This document shows, piece by piece, positions 3,875 through 15,252 of a DNA stretch of 46,012 nucleotides (position 1 is its first letter; every line of letters starts with the position of its first letter). The stretch lies in NCBI GenBank assembly GCA_017450645.1, contig JAFSTE010000030.1:1-46012 (forward strand), given 5' to 3'. This DNA comes from Eubacterium sp. GTDB lineage: Bacteria; Bacillota; Clostridia; Oscillospirales; Acutalibacteraceae. The notes under the pieces were generated by a model. The model worked only from the letters and a program-made list of their open reading frames with translations, was not told where the DNA came from and searched no databases. The translations under genes were made by a program, and so were the position numbers.

Positions 3875-5248
3875 TTACGAGTATAACGAAAATTCTTCAA
3901 TATACGGCGTACTGCGCGACTGACGGATTACAAACAGCACAGCGCTACAGGTGGCGTTAACTTTAATAATCTTTTTTGAGCCGATAACGCCGCCCTTATA
4001 AATGCGCTTATACTTGCCGTTCGGCTTAAGGACATAAAGGTCAAACCTCTCTACCCTTTGTGACATACTGATATCCTCGCTGATAACACAATACTTTATC
4101 TTTGTGTCGCCTGACAGCTTAAATTCGAGATATCCGTCCTCAAGCTCGCCAAGATTTTTAACAAGTATCGGATTTTCGTAAATCTCGCTGATACGCTTAC
4201 CGAGAAGCTTTAGGGTTTTCGTTTCGCGGCGTGAGATAACGCCTCTGTCGTTAGGCGGAACATTAAGCAGCAGGAACGAATTATTACCAACGGAATTAAG
4301 ATAAATATCAAATAGCTTTGAAACGCTTTTAACGGTAGAATCCGTATCGGGATTATAAAACCAGCCCTTCCTGATAGAAACATCAACCTCAGCGGGATAC
4401 CAGGTAAGATATGCGTTTTTAGAAAGCACCTTGCGCGAGCCCAAATCCTCGTCGCTCGAGGTGATTTTTTGCATCTTAGCAGCATCGGAAGCCGTCTTTT
4501 GAGAAATCTTTTGTACGGTTTCGGCTTTAGTGAGATACTCGGGTACAACGCTGTACTCGTTCTCTCTCGTTTCGGCGCCCTCGTTGCCGACCCAACGGAT
4601 ATCGGGTCCGCAAATTGCGATATTTGCATTTGGCTGCAGGGTTCTTACAAGTCGATAATAGCGCTCCCAGTCGTATTCAAAGTCTTTAGCGTCAGCGCCC
4701 TTAGCGCCGTCAAACCAGACCTCAAAAATTTCGCCGTACTGCGTTAAAAGCTCGGTGAGCTGACGGCAGAAAATATCGTTATAAATAGGTGTGGCATAAT
4801 TCTTGTCGTGCATATCCCAGGGTGAAATATACACGCCGAAGTCAAGCCCCTGCTCGCGACAGGCACACGCGGTCATTTCGACGATATCAAGACCGTACGC
4901 CGACTTCATAACATTAAAATCCGTAGTGCCGGTATTCCAAAGACAAAAGCCATCGTGATGCTTACAGGTAAGAATAATACCCGTAGCGCCGGACGCCTTA
5001 ACAGCCTTTGCCCACTGGGTAGGACTAACGGAGGTGATGTCAAAATCCTCAACGGTTTCGGCGCCGTTACCCCACTCGCGACCGGTGGCTGTGTTCATAC
5101 CGAAATGTATAAAACAGTAAAACGGCTTTTTACTATGGTCAATCTGCCTTTGCTCAGGGCGCACGGCAATATAACGCTCAACCTCGCTGTCGTTAAGAGG
5201 TGCGGAACCGTTTTTGGTTGTCCAGTTTTCTTCAAGCTTTAATTTCAT
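3875..5248 (-). CDS. Alpha-L-fucosidase, glycoside hydrolase family 29
   Basis: This is a retaining alpha-L-fucosidase expected to remove fucose from host or dietary glycans. The 457-residue protein has the GH29 signature stretch KHHDGFCLW (about 96-104), YISPWDMHD (about 140-148) and the nucleophile Asp in VWFDGAKG (D180). No signal peptide is visible, so the enzyme is probably cytoplasmic and would act on imported oligosaccharides. I chose the ATG at 5248, which is preceded by GGTGAG at 4 nt. The GTG at 5257 has no ribosome-binding site. The C-terminal 80-100 residues look like a beta-sandwich domain. The gene is monocistronic with its own strong promoter. Linkage preference is unknown. Confidence 0.9.
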   Translation of the reverse strand: MKLKLEENWTTKNGSAPLNDSEVERYIAVRPEQRQIDHSKKPFYCFIHFGMNTATGREWGNGAETVEDFDITSVSPTQWAKAVKASGATGIILTCKHHDGFCLWNTGTTDFNVMKSAYGLDIVEMTACACREQGLDFGVYISPWDMHDKNYATPIYNDIFCRQLTELLTQYGEIFEVWFDGAKGADAKDFEYDWERYYRLVRTLQPNANIAICGPDIRWVGNEGAETRENEYSVVPEYLTKAETVQKISQKTASDAAKMQKITSSDEDLGSRKVLSKNAYLTWYPAEVDVSIRKGWFYNPDTDSTVKSVSKLFDIYLNSVGNNSFLLLNVPPNDRGVISRRETKTLKLLGKRISEIYENPILVKNLGELEDGYLEFKLSGDTKIKYCVISEDISMSQRVERFDLYVLKPNGKYKRIYKGGVIGSKKIIKVNATCSAVLFVIRQSRSTPYIEEFSLYS

Positions 5249-5268
5249 TATACTCACCGCATAAATAT

Positions 5269-5402: not shown

Positions 5403-6023
5403 ATGAAAAAAAGCATTAAAAACACAATTATGATAGGAATGGCTGTTGTGCTTTGCGGTACAAGCGCAATTACCTTCAGCTACGCGTCGCAGGGCGCAAG
5501 ATTTGACCTCGCAGACCACCCGCCGCAAATTGCAAGACAATTTGAGCAAGACTCGCAAAACCCGATAGACGGCTTCGGACAAAATAATCAAAACAATAAT
5601 CAATCCGAAAACCAGCCCCCACAAGGCGATAACCAAAGCGGACAGCAAAACCAGCAACCGCCACAGAGCGGACAAAACGGACAAAGCGGCGAACAAAACG
5701 AACAACCGCAGGCTCCGCCGAGCGACAACAGCTCTAATCAGCAAGACGACGGCAAACAAAGCGAAAACAGCGACGAAAAGGCGAACAGAAACACAGCGCT
5801 TTCGTCTGAGTCAAGCGTTGAGAGCTCAGCGCAAACAACGGGCAATATGCCGCAAATGCAGCGCAGAGGGACAAGCGCAATCAGCGTAATCTGTTATCTG
5901 TTCTTCGCAATACAAATAATGATACTCTTACTTATTTTCGTGTACCTCGCTCTATCAAAATTCAATCGCATAAGCTTTAACGAGGTAGCGCAAAAATTAG
6001 GCAGCAAAAACAAACAAAAGTAA
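5403..6023 (+). CDS. Secreted/membrane-anchored Gln/Asn/Pro-rich hypothetical protein
   Basis: The function is not recognised. The 206-residue protein has an N-terminal signal-like hydrophobic segment (about 8-30). A long low-complexity tract rich in Gln, Asn, Pro, Ser and Gly follows (about 50-150). A single strong transmembrane segment lies near the C-terminus (about 160-185), with a basic cytoplasmic tail ending KNKQK. There is no sortase motif. The layout suggests a flexible extracellular stalk held in the membrane. GGAG lies 12 nt upstream of the ATG. The gene stands alone between the fucosidase promoter and a terminator. The minus-strand reading frame across the same bases is a shadow of the repetitive composition. 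Confidence 0.7.
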   Translation: MKKSIKNTIMIGMAVVLCGTSAITFSYASQGARFDLADHPPQIARQFEQDSQNPIDGFGQNNQNNNQSENQPPQGDNQSGQQNQQPPQSGQNGQSGEQNEQPQAPPSDNSSNQQDDGKQSENSDEKANRNTALSSESSVESSAQTTGNMPQMQRRGTSAISVICYLFFAIQIMILLLIFVYLALSKFNRISFNEVAQKLGSKNKQK

Positions 6024-6055
6024 AAACAGAAGCGTCGATATGACGCTTCTGTTTT
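6024..6055. terminator. Bidirectional rho-independent terminator
   Basis: A 13-bp perfect stem (6024-6036 with 6042-6054, loop GATAT) is followed by a T run on the plus strand and flanked by an A run for the minus strand. It ends the Gln/Asn-rich gene and the seven-gene sugar operon arriving from the other side. Confidence 0.88.
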
Positions 6056-7565
6056 ATTTACCTATATACCTATAAAACGCGGAGTTAGATGAGTCGGTGC
6101 CGACGAAGTTCATTTTATGGTCGATTGTTAAATCCGTAAGCGAGTTTAAATAATCGTATTCGGTAACACACTCACCTTTTGTTTGAATAAACTTCGACAT
6201 TGACGAGCTATATTCAACAAGCGGAGTAAACACACCGATTGTAAATATCAAAAGCACTGTAAGCAGCTTTCTGGCGCGCTTTTGATACTCCTTAGAATTC
6301 TTGTCGACTTTGGGGTCTTTTTTCTTTAAAAGCTCGGGAACGAGATAATCCATAAGCATTATCATAAGCAAGTAAAGCGCAGGTATAGACGCGCGCATAC
6401 AAAAGTCTATACCGTTTCCAACCGTAACAAACGGAATTGCCATAAGTGACAAGAGTATTACCAACGACTCAAATCTGTTGCTCTTGTTATGCAGCGCAAG
6501 CAGCATAAATCCGAATTCGACCAAGCAGAAAAAGATATACATCCCTATATAATAAGGCGAGAAGTTCAAGGCAAGCGCTGCTGTTCCGCCCGCTGCTTCA
6601 TCGGTAGAAACGGCGTTATTGCCGTAATACAGCGCATAAACCGGGAACAAGGTCACGATAGCTAATATATTTTGAGGGGTGAAGATGTTTTTAAAAAACT
6701 GCCCGACATTTTTATCCTTAACCGCGAGGATAAGGCTTCTGACAGCAAACATAATCATATAAGCTGCAAGTCCGACAAGCGGAAGCGGCGAGGTAGGAAG
6801 CAACAAAAGTCCGATAAGCGCAAAGCTTTTTTCGTCCTTTTCGTTAAACGCGATAGAGCACGCAAGCCACGCGGGTACTGACTGATTGAACACCCAGCAA
6901 AGCTGAGTCGACATACTGCTGTATTGAAAAGCACTTGCCCACCATTCAAGGTGATTAAAAAATGCACTGGGGTCAAACAGCGAGCCGAGCGCGTCCATAC
7001 CGCTGAAAAGTACAAATATGAGCAGCGAAAAGTATACTGCTTTTTTTCTTTGTGCTCCGGTTTTAAACAAAATGAGGACAAACGAATTAAACAGCAGAAT
7101 TACAGTCCATACGACCATTGCAATCCTTGCTATAACCCATGCAAGATTAAAGCCGCCTACTGCCGCGCCGAGCTTACCGAACAGCGCAGGTACAAGCCAG
7201 TATCCTATATAATAAACAAGGCTTTCATCGCCCGCGTTATTGTATTTAACGGGCCACGAATAATTAATCAAATCCCTTAAAATTACATTTCTTATATTAT
7301 GGTCGCTCTTTTGGGTAAAAAAGCCTCCAATTCCGGACAGCACAGCCCATACGGTCAGGAGCAAAAGCAGCACTATAATTGTGGATTTTTTAACCGTTAT
7401 AGTCTTGTCTTCGCCCTTTGATGCAAAATACACCGCAGCGCAAAGCAGAATTGCACAGGGTATACCGATATAGAGCTTTAGCCAGGTTACAAAGAATACT
7501 ACAGCAGGCAGCGCCAAAAGTATAAGACCGCTTAATTTAAGCTTTTTATAGTGTAAGGTAATCAT
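6054..7565 (-). CDS. Polytopic membrane protein, candidate GT-C glycosyltransferase
   Basis: The 503-residue integral membrane protein has roughly ten to twelve hydrophobic helices. After the second or third helix comes a loop with paired acidic residues (KSDHN, LRDLINYSWP). GT-C enzymes often carry their catalytic Asp/Glu in this first outer loop. The C-terminus ends in a soluble segment of about 50 residues. No family signature is certain. Its start overlaps the stop of the gtrB-like gene by one base, and it is the last gene of the CDP-sugar operon. I infer a GtrC-like role, moving a sugar from polyprenyl phosphate to a surface acceptor. A flippase or polymerase role is also possible. Confidence 0.65.
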   Translation of the reverse strand: MITLHYKKLKLSGLILLALPAVVFFVTWLKLYIGIPCAILLCAAVYFASKGEDKTITVKKSTIIVLLLLLTVWAVLSGIGGFFTQKSDHNIRNVILRDLINYSWPVKYNNAGDESLVYYIGYWLVPALFGKLGAAVGGFNLAWVIARIAMVVWTVILLFNSFVLILFKTGAQRKKAVYFSLLIFVLFSGMDALGSLFDPSAFFNHLEWWASAFQYSSMSTQLCWVFNQSVPAWLACSIAFNEKDEKSFALIGLLLLPTSPLPLVGLAAYMIMFAVRSLILAVKDKNVGQFFKNIFTPQNILAIVTLFPVYALYYGNNAVSTDEAAGGTAALALNFSPYYIGMYIFFCLVEFGFMLLALHNKSNRFESLVILLSLMAIPFVTVGNGIDFCMRASIPALYLLMIMLMDYLVPELLKKKDPKVDKNSKEYQKRARKLLTVLLIFTIGVFTPLVEYSSSMSKFIQTKGECVTEYDYLNSLTDLTIDHKMNFVGTDSSNSAFYRYIGK

Positions 7566-8503
7566 TATTCGTCCTCAAAATTAATTCTTTCTTCTTCAAT
7601 CACAAGCGGTCTGTTCATAACCCTTGTGTTGATATTCATTATGTACTCTCCGAGGAAACCGAGGAAAAACAGCTGTACAGAGCCTAAGAAGGTAATGCTG
7701 ATAACAGTAGGCACCGTACCGCCTGGGAATCTGCTCCACCAAATCAGCTTCATAACAAGGTAAACAATACCGATAATCGCGCTTATCATCGCTACAATAA
7801 ATCCCGCAAAGGACGCAATCCTCAGCCCGATTTTTGTGTACGAGGTGAACGACAGCATAGCCGCGTCGTAAAGCGTAAAGAAGTTATTATGCGTTTTACC
7901 CGCCGCACGCTTAGGCTGAGTATAATCGATATCCTTTCGCTTATAGCCGAGCTCCGCTACAATTCCGCGGATAAAGGGAGTCGGGTCGTCAAGCTCGCGT
8001 AGCACCTGAATAAAGGATTTATCATAAAGCGCAAAACCCGTAAAATGCTCAATCTGCTCAACGGGCGACATCTTTTTAATCAGCTTGTAATAGCAGCTTC
8101 TGAAAAAGCGTACGAGTTTATTTTCTTTACTTGCGCTCTTAATACCACACACGATTTTATAGCCGTTCTCCCACTCATAAACAAATCGCGGTATCATCTC
8201 AACGGGGTCCTGAAAATCGGCGCAGATAGGAATTACGCAGTCGCCCGTCGCCTGCAAAAGCGCATAGTAGGGCGAATTAAACTGACCGAAATTCTTTGCG
8301 TTAAAAATCGCCTTGATCTTTTTGTTTTCGGCACAAATACCGCGAATAAGAGTCTGAGTATTATCCGTCGAGCAGTTATCAATAACAAGTATTTCATAAT
8401 CGTACTCGGGCAGAGAATTTTTCAGCTCGCTCTCAACAGCATTCGTAATTTTTACAATATTTTCTTCCTCGTTATAGCAAGGAATAACTATTGAAATCTT
8501 CAT
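7565..8503 (-). CDS. GtrB/DPM1-like polyprenyl-phosphate glycosyltransferase
   Basis: The 312-residue GT2 enzyme has VIPCYNEEEN at 5-14, the nucleotide-binding NCSTDNT near 43-49 and ADFQDP (95-100) in place of a simple DXD. Two C-terminal transmembrane helices (about 228-255 and 268-290) follow, as in bactoprenol glucosyltransferases. Enzymes of this type move a sugar from a nucleotide donor to undecaprenyl phosphate at the inner membrane face. It sits directly after the CDP-sugar genes and before a GT-C-like protein, so its donor may be the CDP-linked sugar made here rather than UDP-glucose. That donor assignment is inference. No gtrA-type flippase gene is adjacent. Confidence 0.85.
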   Translation of the reverse strand: MKISIVIPCYNEEENIVKITNAVESELKNSLPEYDYEILVIDNCSTDNTQTLIRGICAENKKIKAIFNAKNFGQFNSPYYALLQATGDCVIPICADFQDPVEMIPRFVYEWENGYKIVCGIKSASKENKLVRFFRSCYYKLIKKMSPVEQIEHFTGFALYDKSFIQVLRELDDPTPFIRGIVAELGYKRKDIDYTQPKRAAGKTHNNFFTLYDAAMLSFTSYTKIGLRIASFAGFIVAMISAIIGIVYLVMKLIWWSRFPGGTVPTVISITFLGSVQLFFLGFLGEYIMNINTRVMNRPLVIEEERINFEDE

Positions 8504-8504
8504 T

Positions 8505-9425
8505 CTACATCTCCGAAATATATTTTTTACGCCACGAAACCGTGCGTTTTATACCCTCTTCAAAGGTGATTTGCGCCTCAAAGGAGGTATCCTCTTTAAG
8601 CTTAGATATGTCGGCGCAAAGGTACATAACCTGATTTTCAAAATAATCGCGAGCACCGAAATTCATTTTAGCGCCGTTATTTCCCACAGCGTTATAAATC
8701 ATTTTAATGTAATCTTTAAGCGCTTTTTCTTGTCCGCTTGCGATAACATAGTCCTCGTTATTTTTACCTTTTTCGCAAACGAGGCAGAGAGCTCTGCCCA
8801 AATCCTCGTTATTTATGTAATCCCAGGTCTGTTCACAGGGCGTAAAATTGCAGCTTTTTCCGTTTATAAAGCCGTCTATAGCGTACATAGTAAGCGTATA
8901 ATCCCTGTCGCCGATGCCGTATGTGGATAGAATTCTGCACCAGTTAAAGCCGATACCGAGCTCACTACACAGCGCCATAGCCTCCTTATGCGCTTTAACC
9001 TTGGCTTTGGCATAATAAGTCACCGGGTTTTCTTTTAGCTTTTCGCTAATCTTAACGCCGTACGGCAAAACACCGTATTCCGCCTGAGAGCCTACAGCAA
9101 CAAACTTTTTGCAGCCCGTTTTTTGTGCAAGCCTTACCGCATCAAGAGTATAGCCGACATTAGCGTACTGCGCCTTTTTATCATTACGCTCGCTGCCGTA
9201 AGTGCCGTTCCACGCAAGGTGGAAAAAGTAATCCGCTTTACAGTTTAGGTTTAGATTACAGTAATTCTCAAGTGAACAGCTAACAAACTCTATATTCGTT
9301 TTATCAATACCGTAAAGCTCGGGCTCTTTTCTGCAAAGAACAGTAACATCAAATCCCTGATTAACAAGAGCGTATACAAGCCCCCAGCCAACAGCGCCGT
9401 TAGCGCCCGTAACAACAGCCCTCAT
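8505..9425 (-). CDS. NAD-dependent epimerase/dehydratase (extended SDR) for nucleotide sugar
   Basis: The 306-residue protein has the extended-SDR glycine motif TGANGAVGWG (6-15) and the active-site pair Y138 and K142 in YYAKAK. A Ser in VGSQAEYG (about 112-119) completes a typical catalytic set. Its ATG overlaps the stop of the TPP enzyme by one base. In Yersinia yersiniose synthesis, YerF reduces the acetyl side chain that YerE adds to a CDP-3,6-dideoxy-4-hexulose. The position of this gene directly after a YerE-like enzyme makes a YerF-like reductase the leading guess. A 4-keto reductase or an epimerase remains possible. Confidence 0.8.
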   Translation of the reverse strand: MRAVVTGANGAVGWGLVYALVNQGFDVTVLCRKEPELYGIDKTNIEFVSCSLENYCNLNLNCKADYFFHLAWNGTYGSERNDKKAQYANVGYTLDAVRLAQKTGCKKFVAVGSQAEYGVLPYGVKISEKLKENPVTYYAKAKVKAHKEAMALCSELGIGFNWCRILSTYGIGDRDYTLTMYAIDGFINGKSCNFTPCEQTWDYINNEDLGRALCLVCEKGKNNEDYVIASGQEKALKDYIKMIYNAVGNNGAKMNFGARDYFENQVMYLCADISKLKEDTSFEAQITFEEGIKRTVSWRKKYISEM

Positions 9426-11221
9426 TATTCTTTAATCCTCGGTATTATCATAATTTTATCCATCTCTTCATCGCTAAGAAACGGCGCCATATCCTCAAGC
9501 GGAGGTGAAACCAAGCTGCCGTCGGGCAGCTTTTTAGCCGAGGACTTAGGTTCGAAGTTCTGAGTAGTTGAAACAAAGACCTCTGCAATTACCGCGCCCT
9601 CTTTAGTAAGAGCGTTATTTATAAATTCATTAAGTTCTGCGTTAGAGTCGCAGCGAAGATAATCTATGCCGTACGCCGCAGAAAGCTTATCAAGCGGTGG
9701 AAATTCAAGGTCGTTACTGTCGGGACCGATACCTACGAATTTTGCGTCAAAAAGATTAGTCTGTGTCTGCCTTATAGAATGATATCCGGCGTTGTTAATA
9801 ACAAAAATTTTAACATCAAGCTTATTTGTTTTAATAGTCTGCAGCTCCTGCAAATTCATCTGAATTGAGCCGTCGCCGCTTACACAGATAATCCTTTTAT
9901 CGCCCGCGCGCGCCGCACCGATTGCCGCAGGTAAATCGTAACCCATAGAGGCAATCGCGCTGTTTATAATAAAGCGGGAATTATTTTTAATCTCGTATGC
10001 GTGGGAGCCTACCACGCAGGCAGAGCCGTTACCGACAACGGTGATATCGTCATTATTAAGCGTTGCCGAAAGCATTTTAATAAACGCATAAACATTAGCC
10101 CTGTCGTTGTCATCAAAATGCTTTTTCAACACAACGGGATAGTCCTTTTTCCATCCTTGGCAGGTGTTAACCCACTCGCTGAAATCATTTAGCGGAGCGC
10201 TGATACTGTCGCATAGCTTTTCAATAACGCTTTTAACATCTGCACAAACAGGTAAATCAATATGAAGCGTCGGCTTTTTAAGCTCCGCCTCGTCTATATC
10301 AACAGCGACTACAAAAGCCTCTCTCGCCCAGGTTTTGAAGTTGTATCCAACCTGGCGAATAGAAAGCCTTGAGCCGAGCGATAACACAAAATCACTATTT
10401 TGAACGGCGAAATTTCCCGCTCTGTCACCCATAATACCGCCCCTGCCGACATAAAGCGGATGCTCGTCAGCAATAAGGTCAATGCTGTTCCAGCAGGTTG
10501 TAACGGGCACTCCGAGTTTGTCAACAAGCTCCTTAAAGCTGTCATAAGCGCCCGAAGTGCGAATAGCCGAGCCCGCAATAATTACGGGTCTTTGGGCACT
10601 TTTAAAACGGTTAATAATTTTTTCTATATCCTTATCCTTAGCGAGATATAATTCTTTTTCACAGTCAAAAGAAACGAGATTTTCCGTATCAACATATGCG
10701 CCCTGAACATTAAGCGGTATGTCAAGCCACGACGGTCCGGGTCTGCCTTCTTTTGCAAGATACAGCGCCTTTTGAAGATGGTACTTTATCATTTCGGGCT
10801 CGGTGACCATTTCGCAGTATTTTGTCATACACTCAACAGCCTTACAGATATCAAACTCCTGGTCACCCATAGCTCTTATCGGCAGATTTGTACTTCTTGC
10901 CGTTGTATCGTACCTTACCTGACCGCTGATAACGAGCATAGGTATAGAATCAAGCCACGCGCCCACAACGCCTGTAATCGCGTTAGTTCCGCCCGGTCCG
11001 GTAGTAACACAGCACAGCGCCATTTTATTGTTAACGCGAAAGTAAGCCTCGGCGGCGATTGCCGAAGCCTGTTCGTGGTGATTATAGGTACACCTTAACC
11101 CCTTTTGATGTCCGAAGGAGTCGTTAAGGTGCATAGCGCCGCCGCCTACAACAGTAAAGCAGTCGGTTATACCGTATTCAGTTATTAACTGCGCTATGTA
11201 GTCGGAAACCTTAATTCTCAT
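9425..11221 (-). CDS. Thiamine-diphosphate enzyme, acetolactate-synthase-like (YerE-like candidate)
   Basis: The 598-residue ThDP enzyme has three domains. The catalytic Glu is E50 in YNHHEQAS, the phosphate-side segment is CCVTTGPGGTNA (about 79-90), and the ThDP/Mg motif runs from SGDGSIQMN to NNAG (about 450-480). It resembles acetolactate synthase large subunits, but no regulatory subunit or ilv gene is nearby. Instead it lies between rfbH and an SDR gene. The same combination occurs in yersiniose synthesis, where YerE transfers an acetyl unit from pyruvate to C4 of a CDP-4-keto sugar. I infer that role. A housekeeping acetolactate synthase is less likely from context. The start overlaps the rfbH stop as ATGA. 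Confidence 0.85.
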   Translation of the reverse strand: MRIKVSDYIAQLITEYGITDCFTVVGGGAMHLNDSFGHQKGLRCTYNHHEQASAIAAEAYFRVNNKMALCCVTTGPGGTNAITGVVGAWLDSIPMLVISGQVRYDTTARSTNLPIRAMGDQEFDICKAVECMTKYCEMVTEPEMIKYHLQKALYLAKEGRPGPSWLDIPLNVQGAYVDTENLVSFDCEKELYLAKDKDIEKIINRFKSAQRPVIIAGSAIRTSGAYDSFKELVDKLGVPVTTCWNSIDLIADEHPLYVGRGGIMGDRAGNFAVQNSDFVLSLGSRLSIRQVGYNFKTWAREAFVVAVDIDEAELKKPTLHIDLPVCADVKSVIEKLCDSISAPLNDFSEWVNTCQGWKKDYPVVLKKHFDDNDRANVYAFIKMLSATLNNDDITVVGNGSACVVGSHAYEIKNNSRFIINSAIASMGYDLPAAIGAARAGDKRIICVSGDGSIQMNLQELQTIKTNKLDVKIFVINNAGYHSIRQTQTNLFDAKFVGIGPDSNDLEFPPLDKLSAAYGIDYLRCDSNAELNEFINNALTKEGAVIAEVFVSTTQNFEPKSSAKKLPDGSLVSPPLEDMAPFLSDEEMDKIMIIPRIKE

Positions 11222-12552
11222 TTATTTAACGCCTCGATAATTATTTTTGACATATAGTCAAGCTTTGCGTCGGTCATACCTGGGTATACGCCTATCCAGA
11301 AGGAATTTGACATTACCCTGTCGGTGACCTCTAAGCCGCCTGCTACGCGGTATTTATCAGTACCTCTTATTGAATCAAAAACGGGCTGACGAATGATATT
11401 GCCCGAGAAAAGCATCCTTGTCTGAACGCCGTGGTTCTCGCAGTACTGAACGACCTCGTTTTTTGATACGCCGTCCTTGCAGGTTACTATAAACCCGAAC
11501 CACGACGGGTCGCTGTTTTCACAAGCCTTTGGTAAAATCAGCTTATCCTCAACAGCTTTTAAACTACTTAAAACTCTATTAAAATTATATCTTCTTTTCT
11601 TTGCAAAAGACGGGAATTTGTCAAGCTGAGCGCAGCCGACAGCCGCCTGCATTTCGGTAGCCTTAAGATTAAAGCCGAAGTGGCTGTATACATACTTATG
11701 GTCGTAGCCAAAGGGCAGCTCGCCATACTGACCGTCAAATCTGTGGCCGCAAAGATTATCAACGCCCGACGGACACGCGCAGTCGCGTCCCCAGTCGCGC
11801 ATAGAACGCGCGATTTTATGAAGCAGCGGATTGTTAGTATATACAGCGCCGCCCTCGCCCATCGTCATATGGTGCGGCGGATAAAAGCTCGATGTACCTA
11901 TATCGCCGAAAGTACCGGTAAGCCCTGTATTGCCGTCAAGGGTGTATTCGCTGCCAAGCGCGTCGCAATTATCCTCGATAAGCCAGAGTCCGTTTTTGTC
12001 GCAAAATTCACGAACAGCCTTAATATCAAACGGATTACCGAGCGTGTGAGCGAGCATAACAGCCTTGGTTTTACTGCTTAGCGCGTTGTCGAGCTTAGTT
12101 ACATCAATATTGTATTCGGGTACGGTAATATCAACAAAAACAGGTACTGCGCCGTACTGAATAATAGGCGCAACGGTAGTCGGGAAGCCCGCAGCTACCG
12201 TAATTACCTCATCCCCTCTTTCTATCCTTCTCTCCTTAAGAAGCGGAGACGTAAGGATTGCAAAAGCGAGCAGGTTAGCAGAAGAGCCGGAATTCACAAG
12301 CGACACATATTTTACGCCGAGATACTCGCCGAGCTTTTTTTCAAACTCATTACAGTATCTGCCGGAGGTGAGCCAAAAATCAAGCGCGCTGTCAACAAGG
12401 TTTACAACCTCTTTTTCGTCGTATACTCTTGAAGCGTAGGGAATTCTGTCGCCCTCTTTATAAGGCTTTTCGGTCATAAAGGTGCTATAGTATTCCTTTA
12501 TATCTTCAAATATTTTTTCTCTTGCCTGTTCTTTAGTAAGGTTTTCAAACAT
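11218..12552 (-). CDS. rfbH: RfbH/DdhC, CDP-4-dehydro-6-deoxyglucose 3-dehydrase (E1)
   Basis: This PMP-dependent [2Fe-2S] enzyme removes the C3 hydroxyl of CDP-4-keto-6-deoxyglucose. In the 444-residue protein the usual aminotransferase Lys is replaced by His (H227 in SFYPPHHMTMGEGG), the hallmark of E1. The iron-sulfur cysteines are C196, C258, C260 and C268, with the diagnostic C-X1-C-X7-C spacing at the end. The gap from C196 is 61 residues, against 57 in the Yersinia enzyme as I recall it, apparently because of a short insertion. The partner reductase (E3, DdhD/RfbI) is not in this window and must be supplied elsewhere. It lies one base after the rfbG stop. Confidence 0.93.
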   Translation of the reverse strand: MFENLTKEQAREKIFEDIKEYYSTFMTEKPYKEGDRIPYASRVYDEKEVVNLVDSALDFWLTSGRYCNEFEKKLGEYLGVKYVSLVNSGSSANLLAFAILTSPLLKERRIERGDEVITVAAGFPTTVAPIIQYGAVPVFVDITVPEYNIDVTKLDNALSSKTKAVMLAHTLGNPFDIKAVREFCDKNGLWLIEDNCDALGSEYTLDGNTGLTGTFGDIGTSSFYPPHHMTMGEGGAVYTNNPLLHKIARSMRDWGRDCACPSGVDNLCGHRFDGQYGELPFGYDHKYVYSHFGFNLKATEMQAAVGCAQLDKFPSFAKKRRYNFNRVLSSLKAVEDKLILPKACENSDPSWFGFIVTCKDGVSKNEVVQYCENHGVQTRMLFSGNIIRQPVFDSIRGTDKYRVAGGLEVTDRVMSNSFWIGVYPGMTDAKLDYMSKIIIEALNK

Positions 12553-12553
12553 A

Positions 12554-13609
12554 TCAATATCCGATTTCTTTTAAAAATTCATTAATCTGGTTTTTGCATA
12601 CGGAGTTAATGTCGCCACCCTCCGCATAAACCTTAGTCCACTCGACGACCTTTTTTAGCGCCGTATCTATATTCCATACAGGTTTCCAGCCGAAGGTGGT
12701 TTTAAGCTTAGTTGTATCAAGTTTCAGGAAGCCCGCTTCGTGAACGGCGTCCTTTTCGCTAATGTTTTTCCACTTTGCGCCGTTTTGCCAGTGCTTACAG
12801 AATATATCGCAAAGCTCGCCCGTTGATATGCAATCGTCCTCGTCGGGACCGACATTATAATAGCCCTGAAACGCCTTATTTTCGTACTGCTTCATAGCAA
12901 TCATAAGGTAAACATAAAGCGGTTCGAGCACATGCTGAAACGGTCTTGTGGAATAAGGATTTCTTACAATTATATCGTTACCGCTCATAACCGCGCGAAC
13001 GCAGTCGGGCACAATTCTGTCATCGGCAAAATCACCGCCGCCGATTACATTACCTGCCCTCGCGGTAGAAACTGCAATATCGCTGCTGTTAAAAAACGAC
13101 TTTTTATACGAGTGAGTCACAAGCTCGCTGCAGGACTTGCTGTTAGAATACGGGTCCCAGCCGTCAAGCGGCATATCCTCGGTAAACGCAACGTCCAAAT
13201 CCTCGTTTTCGTACACCTTATCGGTAGTTACATTAATAAAGGATTTAACGCTGTCGCTAAGTCTTACGCACTCGCAGACATTAACGGTACCCATAACATT
13301 TGTGTCAAAGGTGTATCGCGGAATTTTATAGCTCGTTTTAACAATGGGCTGCGCTGCAAGGTGCAGCACAATCTCGGGCTGAAACCCGTCGAACACGCCC
13401 TTTAGCTTATCGAAATCGCGTATGTCGCCGATAACGGAATTTATCGGCAAGTCAAGCAACTCAAACAGGCTCGGATTAGTCGGCGCCTCAAGAGCGTAGC
13501 CCGTAACCTGCGCGCCGAGCTCGCAAAGCATCTTGGTAAGCCATGAGCCTTTAAAGCCCGTATGACCCGTTACTAAAACGCGTTTCCCCTTATAAAAATC
13601 ACCAAGCAT
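12554..13609 (-). CDS. rfbG: CDP-glucose 4,6-dehydratase
   Basis: This NAD-dependent extended SDR converts CDP-glucose to CDP-4-dehydro-6-deoxyglucose, the second step of CDP-dideoxysugar synthesis. The 351-residue protein has GHTGFKG (15-21), HLAAQ (83-87), the TDK segment (129-131) and catalytic Y154 and K158 in PYSNSK. I chose the ATG at 13609 because GGGAGG lies about 8 nt upstream and the family begins just before the KGKRVLVTG strand. A longer reading from 13633 has no such support. The ATG overlaps the rfbF stop by one base (TAATG), giving translational coupling. Confidence 0.94.
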   Translation of the reverse strand: MLGDFYKGKRVLVTGHTGFKGSWLTKMLCELGAQVTGYALEAPTNPSLFELLDLPINSVIGDIRDFDKLKGVFDGFQPEIVLHLAAQPIVKTSYKIPRYTFDTNVMGTVNVCECVRLSDSVKSFINVTTDKVYENEDLDVAFTEDMPLDGWDPYSNSKSCSELVTHSYKKSFFNSSDIAVSTARAGNVIGGGDFADDRIVPDCVRAVMSGNDIIVRNPYSTRPFQHVLEPLYVYLMIAMKQYENKAFQGYYNVGPDEDDCISTGELCDIFCKHWQNGAKWKNISEKDAVHEAGFLKLDTTKLKTTFGWKPVWNIDTALKKVVEWTKVYAEGGDINSVCKNQINEFLKEIGY

Positions 13610-14394
13610 TATTTGTCCTCCCAGGTTTTCCACGGCGCGTTACCCGTTTCCCAGAGCTTTTCGAGGATATCCATTTCTCTCTTGGTATCCATACACTGCC
13701 AGAAGCCTTTATATACATAGCTCATAAGCTCGCCGTCCTCGGCAAGCTTCTCCATAGGCTCGCGCTCAAATATAGTCTGGTCGCCGTCTATGTAATCAAA
13801 AATGTCGGGATTAAGAACCATATAGCCGGCGTTGATAGGAGCGCCGTCCGAAATATTCTTTTCGCGGAAGGATTTAACGGCGTTGTCGCCGCCGATATTG
13901 AGCACACCCTTAGACTGCTCGAGCATTGTAGCGGTAAGGGTTGCAATTTTGCCGTGGCTTTCGTGGAACTTAACAAGCTCGCGAATATTAACATCGCACA
14001 CAGCGTCGCCGTAGGTCATCAAGAAGGTTTCGCCCTCGACAAACGGCTTAATTCGCTTAATACGCCCGCCCGTCATAGTGTTCATACCCGTATCCACTAC
14101 GGTTACGCGCCAGGGCTCGCAATGCTGATTGTGGATAATCATATCGTTTTTACCGTTCGTAAAGTCAAAGGTAATGTCGCTGTTGTGCAAAAAGTAATTT
14201 GCAAACCACTCCTTAATGATATGCTGCTTATAGCCCGCGCAGATAATAAAGTCATTAAAGCCGTAATGCGAATACTCTTTCATAATATGCCAGAGTATGG
14301 GCTTACCGCCGATTTCAATCATAGGTTTTGGCTTATATTCACTTTCCTCGCTGATGCGCGTACCGAAGCCGCCTGCTAAAATTACAACTTTCAT
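13609..14394 (-). CDS. rfbF: Glucose-1-phosphate cytidylyltransferase
   Basis: This is the first step of the pathway, CTP plus glucose 1-phosphate giving CDP-glucose. The 261-residue protein has the nucleotidyltransferase opening LAGGFGTRISEES (6-18), PKPMIEIGGKPILWHIM and the YGDAVCDVN metal-binding segment characteristic of RfbF rather than RfbA or GalU. The start is taken at the ATG 14394; a GTG one codon upstream is possible, and AGGGG precedes both. It is the first gene of the seven-gene operon running to 6054, with a good promoter at 14428-14456. Confidence 0.94.
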   Translation of the reverse strand: MKVVILAGGFGTRISEESEYKPKPMIEIGGKPILWHIMKEYSHYGFNDFIICAGYKQHIIKEWFANYFLHNSDITFDFTNGKNDMIIHNQHCEPWRVTVVDTGMNTMTGGRIKRIKPFVEGETFLMTYGDAVCDVNIRELVKFHESHGKIATLTATMLEQSKGVLNIGGDNAVKSFREKNISDGAPINAGYMVLNPDIFDYIDGDQTIFEREPMEKLAEDGELMSYVYKGFWQCMDTKREMDILEKLWETGNAPWKTWEDK

Positions 14395-14427
14395 CACAGA
14401 TTACCCCTATTTTAAGTTATATATTAT

Positions 14428-14456
14428 ATTAAAACACAAAACGCAAAATATGTCAA
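14428..14456 (-). promoter_or_regulatory. Sigma-A promoter of the CDP-sugar operon
   Basis: On the minus strand, a consensus TTGACA (14451-14456), a 17-bp spacer and TTTAAT (14428-14433, one mismatch) lie about 35 nt before rfbF. The wider intergenic interval 14395-14688 is very AT-rich. Besides this promoter and the opposite one at 14588-14615, I see nothing else definite in it. Confidence 0.7.
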
Positions 14457-14688: not shown

Positions 14689-15252
14689 ATGGCTACAAAG
14701 AAGACAGACGCAGCTAAAGAGACTGCAAAGAAGGCAGTTAAGGACACTGCTAAGAAGGTAGAGACAGAGGCTAAGGCTACTGCAAAGAAGGCTGAAAAGG
14801 CAGTAAAGGAAACCGCTAAGAAGGCTGAGACAGAAGCTAAGAAGGCTGAGAAGGCTGTTAAGACCGCTAAGGACACAGCAAAGAAGGCTGAAAAGACTGC
14901 TAAGGATACAGCTAAGAAGGCTGAAAAGGCTGTTAAGGAGTCTGCTAAGAAGACCGAGAAGGCAGTTAAGGATACTGCTAAGAAGGCTGAGAAGGCTGCT
15001 AAGACTACAACTAAGAAGGCTGAGAAGGCTGCAAAGAGCACTGCTAAGAAGCTCGCTACTAAGGAAATCTATTTTGAGTTTGCTGACAAGCAGATTGAGA
15101 TTTCTGACATCAACGAAAAGGTTGAGGCTGCATGGGTTGCAGGCGGTCATAAGGCTTCTTCAATCAAGTCAATCAGACTTTATGTTAAGGCTGAGGACAG
15201 CGCTGTTTACTATGTAATCAACGAAAAGGAAAGCGGCAAAATCGAGCTTTAA
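14689..15252 (+). CDS. Histone-H1-like Lys/Ala repeat protein with C-terminal DUF6465 domain
   Basis: Residues 1-122 of this 187-residue protein are almost only Lys, Ala, Glu, Thr and Val. They form degenerate repeats such as TAKKAEKAVK, as in eukaryotic H1 tails and bacterial Hc2/AlgP-type proteins, so DNA or RNA binding is likely. Residues 123-187 form a compact, ordinary-looking domain (TKEIYFEFADKQIEI to the end) that I assign to DUF6465, found with Lys/Ala tails in Clostridia. The function is not known to me. The gene is monocistronic, with its own promoter and terminator and codon use restricted to a few triplets, suggesting high expression. Long open frames on the opposite strand are shadows of the repeat. 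Confidence 0.8.
   Translation: MATKKTDAAKETAKKAVKDTAKKVETEAKATAKKAEKAVKETAKKAETEAKKAEKAVKTAKDTAKKAEKTAKDTAKKAEKAVKESAKKTEKAVKDTAKKAEKAAKTTTKKAEKAAKSTAKKLATKEIYFEFADKQIEISDINEKVEAAWVAGGHKASSIKSIRLYVKAEDSAVYYVINEKESGKIEL

Follow-up and report, generated by a model that had tools for sequence, protein, structure and literature searches.

We analyzed a stretch of 46,012 nucleotides of DNA from Eubacterium sp. (contig JAFSTE010000030.1, assembly GCA_017450645.1; the whole stretch is called the window below), which carries a seven-gene operon joining enzymes for a predicted CDP-linked branched sugar to a GtrB-type polyprenyl-phosphate glycosyltransferase and a membrane glycosyltransferase. The seven open reading frames (ORFs) all lie on the minus strand and are spaced by 1-nt gaps or overlap by 1-25 nt (Table 1). 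An earlier note on this DNA had described tightly packed genes with rfbF-rfbG-rfbH; all ORFs were confirmed, and RfbF, RfbG and RfbH each exceeded the NCBI curated equivalog cut-off in a profile search. Nucleotides 14398-14456 of the interval noted earlier lie upstream of the first gene. For RfbG, the true start may lie 24 nt downstream of the GTG assigned here, as the family model does not set in until residue 13. Because the gene order recurs in relatives, the operon is not a chance arrangement. The operon type is real and widespread, and its parts are of known kinds.

Table 1. Genes of the operon, its end and the genes flanking the site.
Feature	Coordinates	Strand	Basis
RfbF/DdhA glucose-1-phosphate cytidylyltransferase	13609..14397	-	TIGR02623 374 bits, cut-off 300
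RfbG/DdhB CDP-glucose 4,6-dehydratase	12554..13633	-	TIGR02622 423 bits, cut-off 278
RfbH/DdhC (E1), pyridoxamine phosphate- and [2Fe-2S]-type 3-dehydratase	11218..12552	-	PRK15407 693 bits, cut-off 423; PDB 3bcx E 4e-153
YerE-like thiamine diphosphate (ThDP) carboligase	9425..11221	-	JanthE 8rph match, Thr486, C-terminal tail, tree
Extended short-chain dehydrogenase/reductase (SDR), predicted YerF-role branch-ketone reductase	8505..9425	-	PF01370 1e-24; role by prediction
GtrB-type polyprenyl-phosphate glycosyltransferase (GT2), Asn43	7565..8503	-	Sll0501/GtrB 4e-43
GT-C-fold membrane glycosyltransferase	6054..7565	-	fold
Terminator-like hairpin, operon end	6023..6055	-	14 pairs, then T-rich tail
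DUF6465 gene, left neighbour of cassette site, outside pathway	14689..15252	+	PF20069
Alpha-L-fucosidase-family gene, right neighbour of cassette site, outside pathway	3875..5257	-	PF01120

The window RfbH was aligned with 41 ORFs from other loci at 40% identity or more, and His227, His228, Cys196, Cys258, Cys260 and Cys268 were invariant in all 42 sequences. We take the histidine pair to occupy the place of the lysine that binds pyridoxal phosphate, and the cysteines to be the ligands of the iron-sulfur (Fe-S) 3-dehydratase E1. DdhA, DdhB and DdhC of the DdhABCD pathway for CDP-3,6-dideoxyhexoses are all present. Since DdhD was not found, as detailed below, the operon is taken to work like that pathway and is not classed as a complete one. 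The product of the last gene has a GT-C fold by fold comparison, in agreement with the GT-C-like membrane protein noted earlier, and Asp88, in the first of its outer loops, may serve as the catalytic base.

The source genome (2.08 Mb, 87% complete) gave no match to LpxC and four LCP-family matches, and a MurT gene lies within the window, so that a monoderm host fits. The terminator-like hairpin begins at the stop codon of the last gene; the scan overall returned 12 such sites against 12.4 in shuffled sequence, and a sigma-70 promoter scan for the operon did no better than shuffles.

The ThDP enzyme is YerE-like

The best match of the ThDP protein in the Protein Data Bank was entry 8rph (414 bits, E 1e-122; 35% identity), ahead of the best acetohydroxyacid synthase (AHAS; 243 bits, E 5e-71). 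This entry is JanthE, a YerE-like enzyme according to the accessible part of its report (PMC12188165), where the role of its Lys567 is also discussed. Under the NCBIfam acetolactate synthase model the protein scored 332 bits, below the cut-off of 538. The AHAS of the same genome is a separate gene (L002), 27% identical to the window protein, and it reached 698 bits. At the position that we take to be the acceptor tryptophan W464 of AHAS, L002 has Trp, and both JanthE and the window protein (Thr486) have Thr; among 100 family rows, JanthE included, Thr was found in 97, Ser in two and Phe in one. The JanthE-type C-terminal tail is present as well (K559...VSPPLED), with Lys559 aligned to Lys567 of JanthE and kept in 99 of 100 rows. 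The ThDP motif reads canonical GDG in the window and CDG in JanthE. In a tree of 102 rows, built by a quick method and with long-branch warnings, the family including JanthE stood apart from two outgroups from the source genome, AHAS and IolD. The earlier note had made its case hinge on whether the protein clusters with true acetolactate synthases; by scores, tree and the Trp-to-Thr site it falls on the YerE-like side.

The same note had considered such a sugar unusual in clostridia. This view does not hold for the branch enzyme, as a genome scan found it in at least 80 named loci, mostly of Clostridia, and the nearest ThDP relatives with named hosts are likewise mostly Clostridia. Two YerE-like loci on different contigs (L029 and L030) were seen in one genome, G078.

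The linkage of the genes is conserved. In a survey of 148 related genomes with the E-values applied here, the ThDP gene was found in 18, RfbH in 18 and both in 16, while GtrB was found in 15, 13 of them with RfbH; the Fisher tests on these counts ignore shared descent. The two GtrB genomes without RfbH are G018, which holds an RfbH fragment at a contig end, and G010, where SDR and GT-C genes adjoin GtrB on a 3.9 kb contig. Five genomes with RfbH had no GtrB at the threshold; among these, G076 carries a fragment of GtrB where a contig ends. An SDR adjoins the ThDP gene again in relatives (28-61% identity). In the 80 named loci listed, counting within 6 kb, GtrB (at least 35% identity) was found in 47, any Rfb gene in 41, and both in 25. 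RfbF was found elsewhere in the genome for all 12 loci picked from the 53 named ones without RfbF within 6 kb, by matches of 54-66% identity, three of which have one in-frame stop, and with no control genomes alongside.

Position 43 of the GtrB-type transferase

The window GtrB aligned end to end with Sll0501 (residues 2-303 on chain 27-326), through both the GT2 domain and the C-terminal part, with Asn43 at the place of the uracil-reading Asp43. The N3 of cytosine is an acceptor, which an amide donor should suit and a carboxylate should not. In the accessible parts of the structural reports, the base is contacted by Asp43, or by Asp39 in PfDPMS, and the contact in GtrB is hydrogen bonding to N3 of UDP (PMC5526996); Asp39 of SpsA makes the same contact (PMC3849446). 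The window protein further has Cys at position 94, the first Asp of the DxD motif, and keeps Asp96 and Gln98, whose positions are metal ligands of GtrB in the available text of PMC5526996. Given the change from Asp43 to Asn43, the protein is called GtrB-like and is not classed as a UDP enzyme; Asn43 is predicted to be a base residue compatible with cytosine. The earlier suggestion of a CDP donor thus gains an independent structural clue, the donor nucleotide itself being still a prediction.

Among 53 ORFs from the loci, 49 have Asn43 (38-90% identity) and four have Asp (20-29%). From 517 phage and plasmid records 15 matches were fetched: 12 have Asp, including the GtrB proteins of P22, SfII and SfV and an ArnC, and three have Asn, namely a faecal contig (L168) and plasmids of Methylovirgula (L169) and Ensifer (L175), the two plasmid proteins both lying within an rfbF-rfbG cluster. 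Paralogue matches in eight related genomes have Asp in 14 cases and Asn in two. In a test blind to GtrB, plasmids were searched with RfbG; this gave 103 records, of which 40 were listed and 13 retrieved together with flanks of 10 kb. Four loci had a full-length GtrB match, with Asn in three (L189, L192, L193) and Asp in L184 (22.6% identity, 5 kb from rfbF), where a second match of 75 residues has Asn. In L187, an annotated GT2/GtrA protein too distant to match the window GtrB reads VDDGS.

The joint set of 99 near-full-length rows comprises 69 with Asn and 30 with Asp. Asn occurs in 63 of the 68 rows from Rfb or YerE-like loci (window included) and in 6 of the 31 others. The view of linkage is narrow for L170-L174 and L176-L182, which came with 50 bp flanks, and for the paralogues, whose flanks reached no more than about 1.5 kb on either side. 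One of the six unlinked Asn rows is unrelated (L165), and the other five (L139, L129, L131, L133, L168) belong to the clade and come from short stretches; L133 forms part of L138, an rfbFGH locus. All Asn rows fall on one side of a single branch of the GtrB tree (SH-aLRT 99), also when columns 43 and 77 and L165 are left out (SH-aLRT 97); shuffled Asn/Asp labels required 26 changes on average. Position 77 separates the two sets fully (Ser in 68/68; Ala in 29 and Gly in 1 of 30), and 11 further positions do so at a looser threshold. The split at position 43 exists by construction, the sets being defined by that residue; only Ser77 and the tree built after removal of columns 43 and 77 are independent evidence. 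A two-residue code, in which loss of Asp94 marked a 3-deoxy donor, was abandoned: Asp94 is retained in L175, L189 and L193, where a His-type dehydratase is also encoded nearby. The faecal contig L168 (MT838861, "Bacteriophage sp.", 4.8 kb) encodes a clade GtrB of 66% identity with Asn43 and may be a bacterial fragment.

Proposed pathway and rival explanations

In the pathway that we propose, RfbF would form CDP-glucose, RfbG would convert it to CDP-4-keto-6-deoxyglucose, and RfbH would take off the 3-hydroxyl, possibly with electrons from a ferredoxin or flavodoxin. The YerE-like enzyme would decarboxylate pyruvate and is predicted to attach the resulting two-carbon acyl (acetyl) unit at C4, the ketone carbon of the CDP-4-keto-3,6-dideoxy sugar, and the SDR would reduce the branch ketone to give a CDP-yersiniose-like 4-C-branched 3,6-dideoxyhexose. 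GtrB, reading cytosine via Asn43 instead of the uracil-reading Asp, would place the sugar on undecaprenyl phosphate. The lipid-linked sugar would then be turned outward by a flippase whose gene lies outside the operon, for which there is a GtrA candidate, and the GT-C protein would hand it to an envelope acceptor. Sequence or fold shows the classes of the enzymes, the YerE-like and not AHAS nature of the ThDP protein, the GT-C fold, the conserved linkage and the exchange of Asp for Asn, whereas the individual substrates, the sequence of reactions, the donor nucleotide, the flippase and the acceptor are predictions. We consider this explanation as a whole probable. The CDP-yersiniose named in the earlier note is only the simplest product, and the sibling cassettes described below point to a family of branched sugars.

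The CDP-yersiniose pathway of Yersinia and others (DdhA-D, YerE, YerF) has the same RfbF, RfbG, RfbH, YerE-like ThDP enzyme and branch SDR, and to this extent the likeness drawn earlier stands. It does not extend to a DdhD/E3 reductase, which was not found here; moreover, the host is Gram-positive and the genes run into the GtrB/GT-C pair. JanthE, the nearest solved structure, shares the Thr in place of the AHAS Trp, the tail and the Lys559 equivalent. The GtrA/GtrB/Gtr(type) systems of phages P22, SfII and SfV and of Gram-positive lipoteichoic and wall teichoic acids have the same GtrB-type GT2 enzyme beside a GT-C enzyme; here, in contrast, Asn43 and Cys94 are found, GtrA is missing from the operon, and the pair is linked to CDP-sugar genes. 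In Clostridium, CDP-paratose and 3,6-dideoxyhexose glycosylation of flagellin has been predicted, with RfbF, G, H and S and no DdhD; the accessible part of that report describes neither a branch enzyme nor a GtrB/GT-C pair (PMC13317340). For a YerE-type operon in clostridia, as for a polyprenyl-phosphate transferase with a CDP donor, no report was found in the open-licence literature, subscription papers being mostly outside this scope. New here would be a CDP-reading GtrB clade with exchangeable branching cassettes, made of known kinds of enzymes.

Several observations weigh against the proposed pathway. PF00970, the FAD domain of the DdhD/E3 partner reductase, was not found in the source genome, which is 87% complete, and a search of 20 genomes holding RfbH or the ThDP gene gave a single weak match (G121) and none in the 10 good genomes among them; the control was positive in 8 of 14 known genomes. 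No GtrA lies within the operon, while three matches occur elsewhere in the source genome (best E 1e-18). In the ThDP protein, Arg289 is conserved (89 of 100 rows) and has as its counterpart in the genome's own AHAS an Arg that is presumably the acceptor-binding R276, JanthE having Pro293, and the FAD-stabilising Tyr268 of JanthE is replaced by Met264. The ThDP tree includes JanthE and does not place YpYerE. As regards GtrB, an unrelated GT2 paralogue type (L164, L165) also has Asn at position 43, five GT2 rows in Rfb/ThDP loci have Asp (19-29% identity), and the position of Asn43 on one branch is possibly the outcome of a single event and not of many independent ones. Finally, the set is not always together: 53 named loci extend at least 6 kb to either side of the ThDP gene, and within that distance GtrB was found in 34, any Rfb gene in 27 and both in 18.

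An acetolactate synthase that merely happens to adjoin the operon is a highly improbable reading of the ThDP protein and largely refuted by sequence: its best NCBIfam model is of that type and Arg289 is kept, but the JanthE match, Thr486 and the C-terminal tail, together with the separate AHAS gene, led us to reject this reading. We regard as quite unlikely that the sugar is branched with its 3-hydroxyl retained, or that RfbH acts otherwise, as the missing DdhD reductase and the absence of PF00970 from 19 of 20 genomes might suggest. A DdhD motif search of 1267 ORFs also found none, and the 30 Fer2 matches listed lie within frames of 196-787 aa. An E3-like protein encoded beside rfbF on a Sphingomonas plasmid (L186) had no match among the loci then compared (E 1e-4). 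Against this explanation, the invariant four Cys and His pair of RfbH would be odd in an enzyme that is never reduced, and anaerobes possess ferredoxins; the electrons may come from ferredoxin or flavodoxin. Across ten good genomes, an Fe-S type RfbH occurs without a DdhD-type reductase domain.

Alternatively, the substrate of the GtrB protein might be a common UDP-hexose, in which case the enzyme would be in the operon for historical reasons and Asn43 would be drift in one clade; we consider this unlikely. The prototypes are described as using UDP-sugars in the available text of PMC11127046, Asn43 has a single origin on the tree, and 12 other positions also split the sets at a loose threshold. 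However, Asn43 is found in all 64 rows with at least 35% identity to the window GtrB, across several phyla, and in the alphaproteobacterial rfbFG-linked proteins L175, L189, L192 and L193 (30-32%), whose stretches carry no YerE-like gene, whereas the GtrB proteins of P22, SfII and SfV have Asp at similar identity (32-33%). Somewhat less unlikely is that the pathway runs as proposed with a donor other than pyruvate, a longer or hydroxylated 2-keto acid giving an erwiniose- or caryophyllose-like branch. Hydroxylated 2-keto acids are the kind of product made by HMGL-type aldolases. Of the 80 named loci listed, 30 have an aldolase match no more than 6 kb from the ThDP gene, and aldolase matches also occur in the sibling cassettes L037, L039 and L036. 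YerE-like enzymes differ in donor: ErwE (erwiniose) and, with similar preference, MMAR_2332 (caryophyllose) use hydroxylated 2-keto acids, ErwE without using pyruvate (PMC12247030). The aldolase-bearing siblings match these enzymes; the window cassette, however, has no aldolase, and its RfbH, ThDP and SDR genes follow one another with no gene between them, an arrangement shared by its closest relatives (L007, L025, L026, L027), although a donor could come from general metabolism.

If the proposed pathway is true, polyprenyl-phosphate sugar carriers would be extended to CDP-sugars, and a one-residue rule (Asp to Asn) would allow the donor nucleotide to be read from a GtrB sequence. Clostridia would then hold a large uncharacterised set of branched surface sugars together with enzymes that make tertiary alcohols.

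Exchangeable cassettes and sibling loci

Two loci of the same genus as the window, L037 and L039, have like neighbours, with HAD and DUF6465-type genes on one side and a fucosidase gene on the other, as judged by reading translations; one to two extra genes lie between in places. Compared with the window, they are 77-92% identical in RfbF/G/H, 89-90% in GtrB and 62-64% in the GT-C protein, and only 45-49% in the ThDP protein. Between RfbH and the ThDP enzyme both encode GtrA and a 539-aa protein; in L037 the former hits PF04138 (4e-22) and the latter PF00682 (4e-25), a family of HMGL-like aldolases. A further locus of this genus, L036, has an alternative cassette with an HMGL-type aldolase. 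Given the sibling aldolases and ErwE-type donors, the cassettes of L037 and L039 should build longer branches and that of the window a two-carbon branch. Longer-branch sugars are predicted for L037, L039 and L036, in the first two at the same chromosomal site. If so, the swap at one site would be a natural experiment on branch length with a nearly constant export machinery.

Other arrangements were observed in more distant loci. A plasmid of Methylovirgula sp. HY1 (L169:8564-15939) encodes RfbF-RfbG-oxidoreductase-RfbH, a two-gene transketolase-type ThDP enzyme, GtrB (Asn43) and GtrA, and thus holds another ThDP class in the same frame. In G125 (L138:5343-12526), RfbF-G-H, a GtrA-like match, an SDR and GtrB accompany a ThDP protein (34%) from another lineage that is closer to AHAS. 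Relatives of Hungatella and Clostridium (L045, L048, L049, L050, L057) have YerE-like proteins lengthened to 667-678 aa, with RfbF elsewhere in the four genomes searched (L045, L048, L050, L057); L045 also has a gene of C-methyltransferase type (PF08484) downstream of the lengthened one. In L097 (11492-12562) and 10 other loci, a gene of the 3-dehydroquinate synthase family (ORF cluster 11) is found close to YerE-like genes; its product may form a carbocyclic or extended branch or alter one.

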